DNA from: Thermoanaerobacterium aotearoense
GTDB taxonomy: Bacteria > Bacillota > Thermoanaerobacteria > Thermoanaerobacterales > Thermoanaerobacteraceae
Length of the DNA stretch: 64,000 bases
Assembly: GCF_009905255.1 (NCBI RefSeq)
Contig: NZ_CP047602.1
Location: forward strand, 186,001 to 250,000
Direction of reading: 5' to 3'
A program made the position numbers and the translations under genes. This document shows, piece by piece, positions 33,282 to 38,095 of the stretch. The notes under the pieces were generated by a model that saw nothing but the letters and a program-made list of their open reading frames with translations, was not told the DNA's origin and did no database searches. Position 1 is the first letter of the stretch. The number at the start of each line of letters is the position of its first letter.

Positions 33282-33311
33282 TTGCAATCGTTTTGTCCTA
33301 AATGGTATAAT
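33282..33311 (+). promoter_or_regulatory. Promoter of the ABC exporter operon
   Basis: TTGCAA (33282-33287), 18-base spacer, TATAAT (33306-33311); predicted start about 33318, giving a leader of roughly 285 bases. Confidence 0.65.
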
Positions 33312-33344
33312 ATCTATAGTTTCTCTTTGAAAGGAAAGATTGTG

Positions 33345-33368
33345 ATGATTAAGGGTGTTCTTAAATAA
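33345..33368 (+). CDS. Putative 7-residue leader peptide MIKGVLK
   Basis: ATG ATT AAG GGT GTT CTT AAA TAA with AAAGGAAAG six bases upstream (33330-33338). Its codons 4-7 are the 5' strand of an 11-bp long-range stem (33355-33365 with 33463-33473). This is the arrangement of antibiotic-responsive leader peptides, in which ribosome stalling changes leader folding. Translation is not proven. Confidence 0.5.
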   Translation: MIKGVLK

Positions 33369-33544
33369 GCCATTAGATTGAAAATGGCAAAAGTATGGCA
33401 TTTTGCTTTGAAGCCGTAAATTTATGGTAATTTATTGGCTTTGTTTGCTGTACTTTAAATTGTTTAAGAACACAGTCAAACACGATCTTTGCTTTTATGC
33501 ACGATAATTGTACCTACGATTGTTGTGTGTCAAAGTTTGCTTAA

Positions 33545-33588
33545 AAAGACTGTATAAGACTATGTTCTTGTACAGTCTTTATTTTTTA
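33545..33588 (+). terminator. Intrinsic terminator (attenuator) directly upstream of the ABC exporter
   Basis: AAAGACTGTA (33545-33554) and TACAGTCTTT (33571-33580) form a perfect 10-bp stem with a 16-base loop, followed by ATTTTTT. It ends about 14 bases before the TTG start at 33602 and shares the space with the GGGGGG ribosome binding site, so it can only be regulatory for this operon. Confidence 0.75.
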
Positions 33589-33601
33589 AGGGGGGATTCT
33601 T

Positions 33602-35350
33602 TTGAGGAGAGTTTTAAAATACGTCTTAAGGTACAAATTGTATGTGATAGTGCCGTCTATTGCCATGGTACTGGCAATCGCACTTGATATGTTTAATCCA
33701 TATCTACAGGAGATAATTACCGACAAAGTATTTATAGGCGGTGACAAGAGCCTTCTTTGGCCAATTTTGTGGGCTTTTATTGCAATTACAGCAGTGAGGA
33801 CCGTATTAGGATATTTAAGAGAGTATATATTTGATGTGCTTTCAGCTAAGATAAGCGTAGACATAAAGAAGGATCTTTTTGATCACATTCAAAGCCTTCC
33901 TTTTAGCTTCTTTGATAATATGAATACAGGTGAGCTTATGTCAAGGATAGGCGAAGATGTTGACAATGTGTGGAGGAGCGTTTCGTTTGGCATAAGGCTG
34001 TTTATTGAAAATATGATATATTTTATCACAGCATCCACAATACTCTTTTTTATAAATTGGAAGCTTACTTTAGTAAGTCTTTTGGGAATGCCTATCATTG
34101 GGTATCTTGCACTTCAGTTTAAAAAAAAGATTGGCATATCTTATGGGAAGCTAAGTGATCAAGGTGTGCTTATGAATACGGCGGCACAGGAGAATATAGC
34201 TGGCGTAAGGCTTGTGAAGGCTTTTGCGAGAGAAAAGTACGAGATCATGAAATTTCTAAGCTTAAATAATGAAAATTTTGAGCTTAGAATGGAGCAAAAC
34301 AGGATAGTGGCCAAGTATTTTCCGCCCATAGATTTTTTGACGAATTTCTCTATCGTCATATTGGTGGTATTTGGCGGCATGCTGGTCATTAAAAGTTCTC
34401 TATCTATTGGGGAATTGGTGGCTTTTAGCGGATATATATACATGCTTATATGGCCTATGAGGATGTTGGGATTTTTGACGAATCTTATTGCGCAGTCAGA
34501 TGCGTCAGCTAAAAAGATAATGAGGATCATGGATATCGTTCCGTCTATTAAAGACAGTGAAGATTCTATAAGGATAAAGGAATTAAAAGGCAACGTGGAA
34601 TTTAAGCATGTGTTTTTTAAATACCATGATGATATGGTCTTAAAAGACATAAATTTCAAGGTTTCAGCGGGTCAAACTGTTGCCATAATGGGTACTACTG
34701 GCTCTGGAAAGTCGTCTTTGGTAAATCTCATCGGGAGGTATTATGATGTCTTTGATGGGGCTGTGTACATTGACGGCCATGACGTAAGAAGCATAAATCT
34801 TCACGATTTGAGAAGCCAGATGGCGGTAGTGCAGCAGGATACATTTTTGTTTTCTGAAAGTATCGAAGAAAATGTCAGATTTGGAAAAGAAGATGCGTCA
34901 TTCGAAGAAGTAAAGGAAGCATTAAGACTGGCTTGCGCAGATGACTTTGTGGAGGAGTTTGACGACAAATACGATACGATAGTAGGTGAAAGGGGTATAG
35001 GACTGTCAGGTGGGCAAAAGCAAAGGATATCTATTGCGAGAGCACTTATAAGGGATGCAAAGATATTGATACTTGATGATGCCACATCTGCTCTTGACAT
35101 GGATACGGAATTTAGGCTTTTAAAAAATCTAAGCGAAAGGCGGAAAAACGCTACGACGTTTATCATTGCTCACAGGATATCGGCTGTCAAAAATGCAGAC
35201 ATGATACTTTACATGGAAGATGGACGAATCGTCGAGAGAGGGACACATGATGAGCTTTTAGAAAAAAGAGGCAGATACTATGAGATTTACTTAGAGCAGT
35301 TTAAAGATTTTAGCGACGAAGAATACGGCATACCTGATGCCTTAAGCTAA
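33602..35350 (+). CDS. Heterodimeric ABC exporter subunit with degenerate ATP site (BmrC/TM287-like)
   Basis: 582 residues: six-helix exporter domain (about 1-320) then an ATPase domain with Walker A MGTTGSGKSSLV, Q-loop VVQQDTFLF, canonical signature LSGGQKQRISIARAL, Walker B ILILDDATSALD and switch His in IIAHRIS. The residue after Walker B is Asp instead of the catalytic Glu, as in the inactive half of heterodimeric exporters. TTG start behind GGGGGG. It partners with the next gene, 29 bases on, to export drugs, peptides or lipids; the attenuator suggests antibiotic-type induction. Confidence 0.9.
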   Translation: MRRVLKYVLRYKLYVIVPSIAMVLAIALDMFNPYLQEIITDKVFIGGDKSLLWPILWAFIAITAVRTVLGYLREYIFDVLSAKISVDIKKDLFDHIQSLPFSFFDNMNTGELMSRIGEDVDNVWRSVSFGIRLFIENMIYFITASTILFFINWKLTLVSLLGMPIIGYLALQFKKKIGISYGKLSDQGVLMNTAAQENIAGVRLVKAFAREKYEIMKFLSLNNENFELRMEQNRIVAKYFPPIDFLTNFSIVILVVFGGMLVIKSSLSIGELVAFSGYIYMLIWPMRMLGFLTNLIAQSDASAKKIMRIMDIVPSIKDSEDSIRIKELKGNVEFKHVFFKYHDDMVLKDINFKVSAGQTVAIMGTTGSGKSSLVNLIGRYYDVFDGAVYIDGHDVRSINLHDLRSQMAVVQQDTFLFSESIEENVRFGKEDASFEEVKEALRLACADDFVEEFDDKYDTIVGERGIGLSGGQKQRISIARALIRDAKILILDDATSALDMDTEFRLLKNLSERRKNATTFIIAHRISAVKNADMILYMEDGRIVERGTHDELLEKRGRYYEIYLEQFKDFSDEEYGIPDALS

Positions 35351-35379: not shown

Positions 35380-37164
35380 ATGGCTAAAAATACGGTGAAG
35401 CAAGACGAAGACTTAAGGCGAATGTCAAATTTCGTCATATTGAAAAGGCTATTTAGTTACCTTGGCAAATATAAATTAAAGGTATTTGTAGTGATAATGT
35501 TTTTAATATTTGAGATGGCTGTAAGCTTGGTAAATCCAGTTCTTATGAAGACAGCAATCGATAAAAACATACGAAATGGCGATATAAACGGATTGTTTGT
35601 CATCGGGATTTTGATGGTGTCATTAAATTTTTTATCAATGATGGCATCAAGAACCAGGATAGTAAAGATGGCTTCTGTCACAAATGACATACTTTTAAAT
35701 ATAAGGCATGAACTTTATAGCCACATACAGAAGCTTTCGTTTTCGTTTTTTGACTCGAGGCCAGTAGGCAAAATCTTAGCAAGGGTTATAGGAGATGTGA
35801 ATTCACTGCAGGATTTGTTTAACAACAGCGTTACAAATTTTATACCACAGATTCTTACAGTAATATGCGTTGGTGCCATGATGTTTTATTTAAACAGCAA
35901 ATTGGCTTTAGCATCTATGATTTTGTTGCCGATGCTTGTGGTTGGGCTTTTTTCAATAGAGACTTTGTCAAGAAGAAGATGGCAGGAATTTAGAAGAAAG
36001 AGGTCTACGTTTAATGCTTACACACATGAAGATTTTTCAGGGATAAAAGTTGTGCAGGAGTTTGCAAATGAAGACAAGACTTCTTCAGTGTTCTTTAAGC
36101 TTGTCAAGGATATGATGGACAGCTTCATTAAAGCTGTAAGACTTAATGACCTTTTTTGGCCTATGGTTGACGCGTCTTATGGAATTGGAGCTGTAATACT
36201 TTATTATTTTAGTGCGAAGTTTATGGGATACGGCGTCACAATCGGGACAATAATAGCATTTACCATGTATATAGGCATGTTCTGGAGGCCGATCCTCGAC
36301 ATAAGCAATTTTTACAATAGCTTAGTAATGTCTTTCGCATCTGCAGAGAGAATATTTGAGATAATGGACATTGAGCCAGATATTGTAGACATGAAAAATG
36401 CCATTAAGATGCCTAAGATAAAAGGGAATGTTGAGTTTAAAAATGTCACATTTGGCTATGAAGATGGCAGTGTTGTATTAGATGATGTAAGCTTTAAAGT
36501 GAATGCTGGGGAGACTATTGCGCTTGTAGGACCTACTGGTGCAGGAAAGACTACGATTGTAAATCTCATAAGCCGTTTTTACGATCCATCTAAAGGTGCT
36601 GTCTTGATAGATGGCAAAGACATAAAGCATGTGGAGCTGGAGTCACTGAGAAGCCAGATGGGCATAATGCTGCAGGATACGTTTCTGTTTTCGGCTACAA
36701 TAAAGGAAAATATAAGGTACGGTAAGCTTGATGCTACAGACGAGGAAATCATAGCTGCGGCAAAAGCCGTAAATGCTCATGAGTTTATAATGAAGATGGA
36801 AAAAGGATACGACACAGAGGTAAACGAGAGGGGCTCAAGGCTTTCTGTGGGACAAAGACAGTTAATATCATTTGCAAGAGCGCTTTTGGCAAATCCTCGC
36901 ATATTGATTTTGGATGAAGCCACATCTAACATAGATACACAGACGGAAAGGCTCGTGCAAAAAGGCATAAAAAGACTTCTTTCGGGAAGAACGTCTTTTG
37001 TCATAGCTCACAGGCTTTCTACCATTAGGGATGCCGATAGGATAATGGTGGTAGATGGAGGAAGGATTGTCGAGACAGGCACACACGATGAGCTTATGAA
37101 TCTTAGAGGCCTTTATTATGACCTCTACATGTCACAGTACAAATTTTTAAGTGAAGGAGCTTAA
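35380..37164 (+). CDS. Heterodimeric ABC exporter subunit with active Walker B (BmrD/TM288-like)
   Basis: 594 residues: exporter membrane domain (about 25-340), ATPase domain with Walker A VGPTGAGKTTIV, Q-loop MLQDTFLF, Walker B ILILDEATSNID with catalytic Glu, and IAHRLS switch. The signature is LSVGQRQLISFARAL, with Val instead of Gly, so this subunit contributes the poor signature to the degenerate site. Together with the Asp in the partner this gives one active and one degenerate ATP site. A terminator follows. Confidence 0.92.
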   Translation: MAKNTVKQDEDLRRMSNFVILKRLFSYLGKYKLKVFVVIMFLIFEMAVSLVNPVLMKTAIDKNIRNGDINGLFVIGILMVSLNFLSMMASRTRIVKMASVTNDILLNIRHELYSHIQKLSFSFFDSRPVGKILARVIGDVNSLQDLFNNSVTNFIPQILTVICVGAMMFYLNSKLALASMILLPMLVVGLFSIETLSRRRWQEFRRKRSTFNAYTHEDFSGIKVVQEFANEDKTSSVFFKLVKDMMDSFIKAVRLNDLFWPMVDASYGIGAVILYYFSAKFMGYGVTIGTIIAFTMYIGMFWRPILDISNFYNSLVMSFASAERIFEIMDIEPDIVDMKNAIKMPKIKGNVEFKNVTFGYEDGSVVLDDVSFKVNAGETIALVGPTGAGKTTIVNLISRFYDPSKGAVLIDGKDIKHVELESLRSQMGIMLQDTFLFSATIKENIRYGKLDATDEEIIAAAKAVNAHEFIMKMEKGYDTEVNERGSRLSVGQRQLISFARALLANPRILILDEATSNIDTQTERLVQKGIKRLLSGRTSFVIAHRLSTIRDADRIMVVDGGRIVETGTHDELMNLRGLYYDLYMSQYKFLSEGA

Positions 37165-37309: not shown

Positions 37310-38095
37310 ATGCCAAAATTATTGACAAAAGAAGAGGAAAAAAATTTATTTGAAAGGCTTAGAAATGGAGATGAAAGCGCTAAAGATGTATTGGTGGAAT
37401 GCAACATAAGGCTTGTTGACAAAGTTGCTGCTGGCTTTTTAAAGTCTGGCGTGGAGTTTGATGACCTTGTTCAAGAAGGATTGATAGGCCTTCTTACAGC
37501 GATAGACAAGTTTGACCACACCAAAGGTTACAAATTTTCTACTTATGCTACTTGGTATATACAGCAAAGCATGAGAAGATATATAGGCAATTACGGCAAA
37601 ATCATTAGGCTTCCAATCCATATAAATGAAAAAATAAACCGAATATTGAAAGCGCGGTATTTGATAGAGCAGAAAAAAGGAAGTCTTGCTACAACAGAGG
37701 AAATATCCAGATTGACAGGATATACTGAAGAAGAGATAGAAGGTTATCTGTCATACGCTACAGATGTCATAAGTCTAAATCAATACGTCAATGATGAAAG
37801 AGTCGATGCAGAGCTTATAAATTTTATACAAGACGATACAATTGATGTAGAGGAGATGGCCATAGAAAAAGAGATTAAAAAAGAAATCAGAAAGATTTTA
37901 GATAGTCTTCCAGAGAGGGAAAGAATGATACTTAAAATGCGATTTGGCTTTGGCTGCAATTTAAAGACACTGACGGAGATCGGAAATATCTTTGGACTGA
38001 CTCGAGAGCGAATACGCCAGATACAGAACAATACCATAAAAGAATTAAGGCACAATCGGAAAGTGAAAGAGAGATTGAGAGAGATTATCACATAA
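37310..38095 (+). CDS. Sigma-70 family RNA polymerase sigma factor
   Basis: 261 residues without region 1.1. Region 2 (about 25-105) has FDDLVQEGLIGLLTAIDKFD for core binding and YKFSTYATWYIQQSMRRYI for -10 recognition; region 3 follows with RLPIHINEKINRI; region 4 has LPERERMILKMRFGFG and the -35-binding helix LTEIGNIFGLTRERIRQIQ. It is closest in style to group 2/primary-like sigma factors, but the short length suggests an alternative sigma. ATG is preceded by GGGGATGATAGG. It stands alone between two export operons and is flanked by 56-bp direct repeats; its own stop codon lies inside the second. Confidence 0.9.
   Translation: MPKLLTKEEEKNLFERLRNGDESAKDVLVECNIRLVDKVAAGFLKSGVEFDDLVQEGLIGLLTAIDKFDHTKGYKFSTYATWYIQQSMRRYIGNYGKIIRLPIHINEKINRILKARYLIEQKKGSLATTEEISRLTGYTEEEIEGYLSYATDVISLNQYVNDERVDAELINFIQDDTIDVEEMAIEKEIKKEIRKILDSLPERERMILKMRFGFGCNLKTLTEIGNIFGLTRERIRQIQNNTIKELRHNRKVKERLREIIT

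Follow-up and report, generated by a model that had tools for sequence, protein, structure and literature searches.

A putative ribosome-mediated transcription attenuator ahead of an ABC exporter in Thermoanaerobacterium, with leaders of similar logic in other clostridia

In the 64-kb stretch of Thermoanaerobacterium aotearoense DNA analyzed here (the window), an intrinsic terminator stands between a promoter-like site and two ABC exporter genes. Sequence comparison and folding models point to a ribosome-mediated transcription attenuator controlling the exporter, a reading to which we assign a probability of roughly 80%. Exporter subunit 1 (582 aa, 33602–35350, start TTG at 33602; all features are on the + strand) has a Walker B motif ending in DD (ILILDDATS, a degenerate catalytic site), while that of subunit 2 (594 aa, 35380–37164) ends in DE (ILILDEATS). 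Such a DD/DE pair is typical of heterodimeric exporters in which one site is degenerate, and, judged by sequence, the regulated genes encode a heterodimeric, multidrug-type ABC exporter, whose bacterial relatives with solved structures are MsbA, Sav1866, and TM_0287/0288. Neither subunit reached the cut-off in an NCBIfam equivalog search, and a plasmid search with the exporter gave no match. Directly downstream lies a gene for an RpoD-like sigma factor (261 aa, 37310–38095) that also falls below NCBIfam equivalog cut-offs.

Transcription probably begins near 33318, judging from a promoter-like site (33282–33311, TTGCAA-18-TATAAT with an extended TG) that carries 10 of 12 consensus bases. The leader 5' UTR (33318–33344) contains a weak Shine-Dalgarno (SD) sequence, AAAGGAAAG, preceding an ATG at 33345, and the frame at 33345–33368 reads directly as ATG ATT AAG GGT GTT CTT AAA TAA, a 7-codon ORF encoding MIKGVLK. 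About 95 nt past its stop codon lies a switch strand (33460–33490) and about 177 nt past it an intrinsic terminator (33545–33587), which consists of a 15-bp stem (33545–33580) followed by ATTTTTT. The predicted fold places internal hairpins P2 (33369–33388) and P3 (about 33393–33458) in the leader-to-switch interval (33369–33458) and a further hairpin, D (33491–33538), between the switch strand and the terminator, where it is present in both states. The exporter SD region, AAGGGGGG (33589–33601, with the SD at about 33589–33596), follows the terminator. A first-pass annotation made from the letters of the window had already named the promoter, the SD, the MIKGVLK frame, and a terminator abutting the exporter, and each was read where it had placed them.

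A single strand in this leader has two alternative partners. TTTAAGAACAC (33463–33473) is the exact reverse complement of GTGTTCTTAAA (33355–33365) within the ORF, giving a perfect 11-bp stem, and AAGAACACAGTC (33466–33477) pairs at 11 of 12 positions with GACTATGTTCTT (33558–33569) in the terminator. Both matches had been proposed in the first-pass annotation and both are real, but the second had been assigned to the terminator loop, whereas GACTATGTTCTT also covers the top of the 5' arm and the beginning of the 3' arm. The switch strand is likewise larger than had been drawn, extending to 33490 and covering either the SD region or the base of the terminator. In the predicted OFF fold, 33463–33490 is paired with the ORF (33355–33365) and with the SD region just 5' of the start codon (33335–33344 with 33481–33490). 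In the predicted ON fold, a first helix joins ACGATCTTT (33482–33490) to AAAGACTGT (33545–33553) at the base of the terminator 5' arm and a second joins TTGTTTAAGAACACAGTC (33460–33477) to 33558–33575; the terminator 5' half with its loop imitates the leader (AAAGATTGTG...GTGTTCTT against AAAGACTGTA...ATGTTCTT).

The predicted folding energy of the 278-nt leader is −103 kcal/mol (z = −10.6), a value that none of 200 shuffles reached. When the middle region was shuffled 1000 times, pairing of the leader (33335–33365) with the downstream region (−23.1 kcal/mol) was equaled by none of the shuffles (−12.2, sd 2.2), and pairing of the switch strand with the terminator 5' half (33545–33575; −18.5 kcal/mol) by 16 of them (−12.4). 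The best sites for the two pairings coincide on one strand, 33460–33490, which is supported as the switch strand by folds, shuffles, and nine-genome pairing alike. By these models, the leader has two mutually exclusive folds, one of which is opened by a ribosome on the leader.

We compared nine Thermoanaerobacterium genomes: the window genome and eight others of the genus (relatives matched by search include T. saccharolyticum NTOU1 and T. butyriciformans). Conservation in relatives had been set beforehand as one test of the first-pass reading, and the leader, switch strand, and terminator were found in 9/9 genomes, with both switch-strand pairings kept in each and 47 invariant columns among the 51 that run from the start site through the leader stop codon. 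The peptide is MIKGVLK in eight genomes and MLKGVLK in the remaining one. Invariant columns numbered 22/24 in the leader ORF, 11/13 in the −10 box and start-site region, 25/25 in the terminator 5' half and loop (33545–33569), 11/13 in the exporter SD region, and 21/48 in hairpin D; conservation is highest in the leader and the terminator. The OFF structure was paired in 94.1% of cells and the ON structure in 95.4%, compared to 36–51% when partners were slid; the leader:switch stem was paired in 99.2% and the ON helices with the switch strand in 99.3% and 100%. The base helix of P3 was 100% paired with two compensatory pairs, and hairpin D 93% paired with two pairs changed on both sides. The leader:switch stem is invariant, without compensatory changes, and a covariation score over the nine genomes was not clearly above shuffles. 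Covariation is scarce because the key strands hardly vary, and these nine genomes alone therefore cannot prove base pairing; since the stem never varies, codon and RNA constraints on the leader are also inseparable, the ORF being conserved, yet in letters that are constrained as RNA too. The parts, their two exclusive pairings, and the conservation of both are nevertheless established by sequence and comparison within the genus. Among 28 other genomes of the class, no DNA homolog of the leader element was found; the sole match outside the genus (in G022) was rejected as a chance promoter-like match inside a gene.

A fold this strong could instead belong to a ligand- or protein-sensing RNA switch, in which the leader:switch stem would be broken when the leader, P2, and P3 bound a metabolite, drug, or protein, the ORF being incidental. 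Conservation of P3 would suit such a switch, and translation of the short ORF is something we infer. However, the most conserved stretch is the SD plus ORF (invariant fraction 0.92 vs 0.55 and 0.63 for the internal hairpins), and no Rfam 15 family (riboswitch, T-box, or leader) matched the leader region at the gathering score. Near-start changes in genome G001 (GTG to ATG, ATT to CTT) preserve the ORF at the cost of a weaker pairing (−14.6 kcal/mol), and orthologous exporters in other clostridia (discussed below) have clear leader ORFs, strong SDs, and an in-frame switch motif. We consider a sensing RNA of this kind improbable, and still more so a constitutive small RNA or plain upstream terminator that does no switching. 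The latter would account for the promoter and strong terminator, and a weak match to the staphylococcal sRNA RsaD spans 33443–33582, though at 27.5 bits against a threshold of 50 (E 0.007) that identity was rejected as probably a chance match. A strand fitting both leader and terminator in 9/9 genomes is not expected of a constitutive RNA, however, and the leaders of orthologous exporters follow the same logic.

Folding models suggest how an attenuator would choose between its states. With the leader free, the terminator was favored in every genome and at every RNA length tested, by 5–20 kcal/mol in 9/9 genomes for RNAs ending at 33572–33576. With the leader covered, the antiterminator was better by 1.5–7 kcal/mol at these ends and was favored until polymerase was near 33576. 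It was also the minimum-energy fold of RNA to 33570 and 33577, with another fold slightly better in G001 and G007 at the latter end. In most species the completed terminator was the more stable form, by +3 to about +6 kcal/mol, despite the covered leader, so the ON state must be kinetic, and the modeled energy profile is that of a kinetic switch. At 60 °C the direction was unchanged and the margins were smaller; at end 33576 one genome stood at +1.4. A modeled ribosome footprint of 30 nt biased the window genome toward ON with codons 1–4 in the P site and toward OFF at codons 6–7 or the stop (codon 8) at 37 °C, while, also at 37 °C, every footprint position gave ON in the most diverged genome for RNAs ending at 33572 and 33576. 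The codon 1–4 result supports the earlier proposal that a ribosome on the leader frees the switch strand for an antiterminator.

In the attenuator we propose, transcription would begin near 33318 and a ribosome would start on the 7-codon leader. If it finished and left before 33460–33490 was made, the switch strand would pair with the leader SD region and codons, hiding the SD from further initiation and leaving the terminator free to form (OFF). A ribosome detained on the opening codons, as might happen with an antibiotic that targets the ribosome, would instead cover the leader strand, and the switch strand could then capture the emerging terminator 5' half and loop, in which case polymerase would read through and the heterodimeric exporter would be made (ON). 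We infer that the leader is translated and that stalling on it leads to readthrough, the inducer probably being a ribosome-targeting antibiotic.

Orthologs of the exporter (about 50–74% identity) occur in 84 of 207 genomes of the Clostridium rhizosphaerae family, and a survey of their leaders covered 89 loci. A strict rule (strong SD, ORF of 20–60 codons) identified a leader ORF at 65 of these 89 loci (one, L067, probably spurious), although the loci are related by descent and such counts are not independent trials. The clostridial plan runs in order from SD and ORF through a switch strand to tandem terminators, two of which are present in 47/65 leaders. The SD is strong, typically GGAGGTAGGA, and the strand that pairs with it, typically CCTATCTC or CCTGCCTC, lies in the second half of the ORF and encodes P-x-S. 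This SD:switch pairing reached p ≤ 0.05 in 45/65 leaders, compared to 1/65 in a control using the exporter's own SD and gene. With its upstream neighbors (e.g., AATAGCCC, CATTAGCCC, TATTAATAACCC, and GATAGTCC), the switch strand finds partners in the 5' arm and loop of the first terminator (e.g., GGGCTATT, GGGCTAAT, GGTTATTAAT, and GGACTATC); this pairing reached p ≤ 0.05 in 39/65 leaders and outranked most other leader stretches in 60/65. The two partner strands co-vary between species, with many base changes. Of 56 switch motifs, 49 lie in frame with the leader, 17–45 codons from the start, and this in-frame position at variable distance is a sign that the clostridial leaders are translated.

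These leaders have no sequence in common with MIKGVLK, and an nhmmer search with the nine-genome profile gave no significant match outside Thermoanaerobacterium. Not being sequence-homologous, they support the logic of the attenuator rather than the MIKGVLK ORF itself. In both groups the switch strand is complementary to the leader SD and to the terminator, but it lies outside the ORF in Thermoanaerobacterium and within it in the clostridial leaders. The pattern GGAGGTAGG...CCTRYCTC was matched in 33/207 clostridial genomes, and the exporter adjoins it at 29 of 30 loci checked (the remaining locus stops at a contig edge), indicating that the clostridial element is specific to the exporter. A further match to this pattern, in G617, resembles 23S rRNA by eye. 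Evidence from outside the genus thus lends support to the attenuator first suggested for the window: control through a leader ORF acting with a switch strand and a terminator appears to be common among orthologous exporters, with two competing pairings in leaders of unrelated sequence. An amino-acid attenuator like those of trp or ilv, with the ribosome stalling when an amino acid of the leader peptide is scarce, would share this stalled-ribosome logic but can be set aside as the least probable reading: MIKGVLK lacks a run of any single regulated residue, no run is common to the clostridial leaders apart from the P-x-S codons that the switch strand imposes, and what is controlled is an exporter.

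Several clostridial loci depart from the common plan. One or two genes for 41-aa peptides occupy the attenuator–exporter interval at L098, L099, L102, L104, and L106, behind leaders of the SPT type (read at L098, L099, L104, and L106); the peptides contain ..TYWAKPLFSNTFKC.. and ..SRYRRKPLYLCNTC.., and an in-frame upstream start would add an LGG motif. They are possibly pump cargo or a second type of leader. L014 (C. magnum) and L094 lack a leader ORF though their exporters are 72–73% identical, and each retains one CATGG terminator; by eye, L014 apparently has a divergent TetR-like gene upstream of the exporter. This suggests that exporter regulation was exchanged at these two loci. The related loci L060 and L061 keep both CATGG terminators and have no strong-SD leader ORF. 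At L003/L048 (G003), exporter subunit 1 seems broken into two pieces, with one TGA and one TAA inside, possibly through sequencing error.

If the attenuator reading is right, uncatalogued ribosome-sensing attenuators guard one exporter in Thermoanaerobacterium and dozens of other clostridia, and drugs or natural products that stop translation at an early stage would be expected to induce the pump. The same gene under the same logic with unrelated leaders would also provide a set for asking how switches arise and are replaced. A broader synthesis is speculative, and we consider it rather unlikely in full: the leader would be a position-sensitive ribosome sensor (stalling on the first few codons, but not at the stop codon, giving ON) whose SD the switch strand then seals, letting each transcript be queried only once; its logic would have arisen independently, or diverged beyond recognition, before one orthologous exporter across Clostridia; and an endogenous peptide could be cargo of the pump, given the small peptide genes seen in a few Clostridium species.

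The element was absent from the literature searched, most subscription papers lying outside that search; most likely it is a ribosome-mediated transcription attenuator, itself new but of a kind already known. The ABC-leaders of Naville and Gautheret (2010) are likewise predicted attenuators upstream of ABC transporter genes, including those of a lactobacillar multidrug exporter; the part of that paper considered here does not describe the clostridial group or its pairing scheme (PMC2965389). Closer likeness, in modeled anatomy and exclusive folds, is to bmrB, cplR, and msrDL. The six-codon msrDL leader (MYLIFM) of the mefA/msrD operon is comparably short and lies upstream of an intrinsic terminator that polymerase passes when a ribosome is stalled by drug, but stalling with erythromycin occurs there at the stop codon, whereas our model at 37 °C gives ON for codons 1–4 and not for the stop (PMC10314930). 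In Clostridioides difficile, the cplR uORF (MRI) is hidden in a 5' hairpin, and stalling on it favors an antiterminator over a terminator ahead of the gene; a start-codon mutant is inactive, and lincomycin and retapamulin were the inducers used (PMC10201436). The Thermoanaerobacterium leader shares this plan of a very short uORF within a 5' pairing, an antiterminator, and a terminator before the gene, although the cplR target is an ABC-F ribosome-protection factor whose main SD is hidden by the terminator, rather than an exporter (PMC10201436). In bmrB-bmrCD of Bacillus subtilis, a leader ORF and an intrinsic terminator precede a heterodimeric multidrug ABC exporter, leader translation is required, and the 50S inhibitors lincomycin, erythromycin, and chloramphenicol induce (PMC4191407). 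The bmrB leader is much longer (162 bp in reporter constructs) with its terminator inside the coding region, whereas the Thermoanaerobacterium leader has 7 codons and a terminator beyond the stop; compared by organization rather than sequence, the two systems share a heterodimeric exporter, an upstream leader ORF, and an intrinsic terminator between them (PMC4191407).
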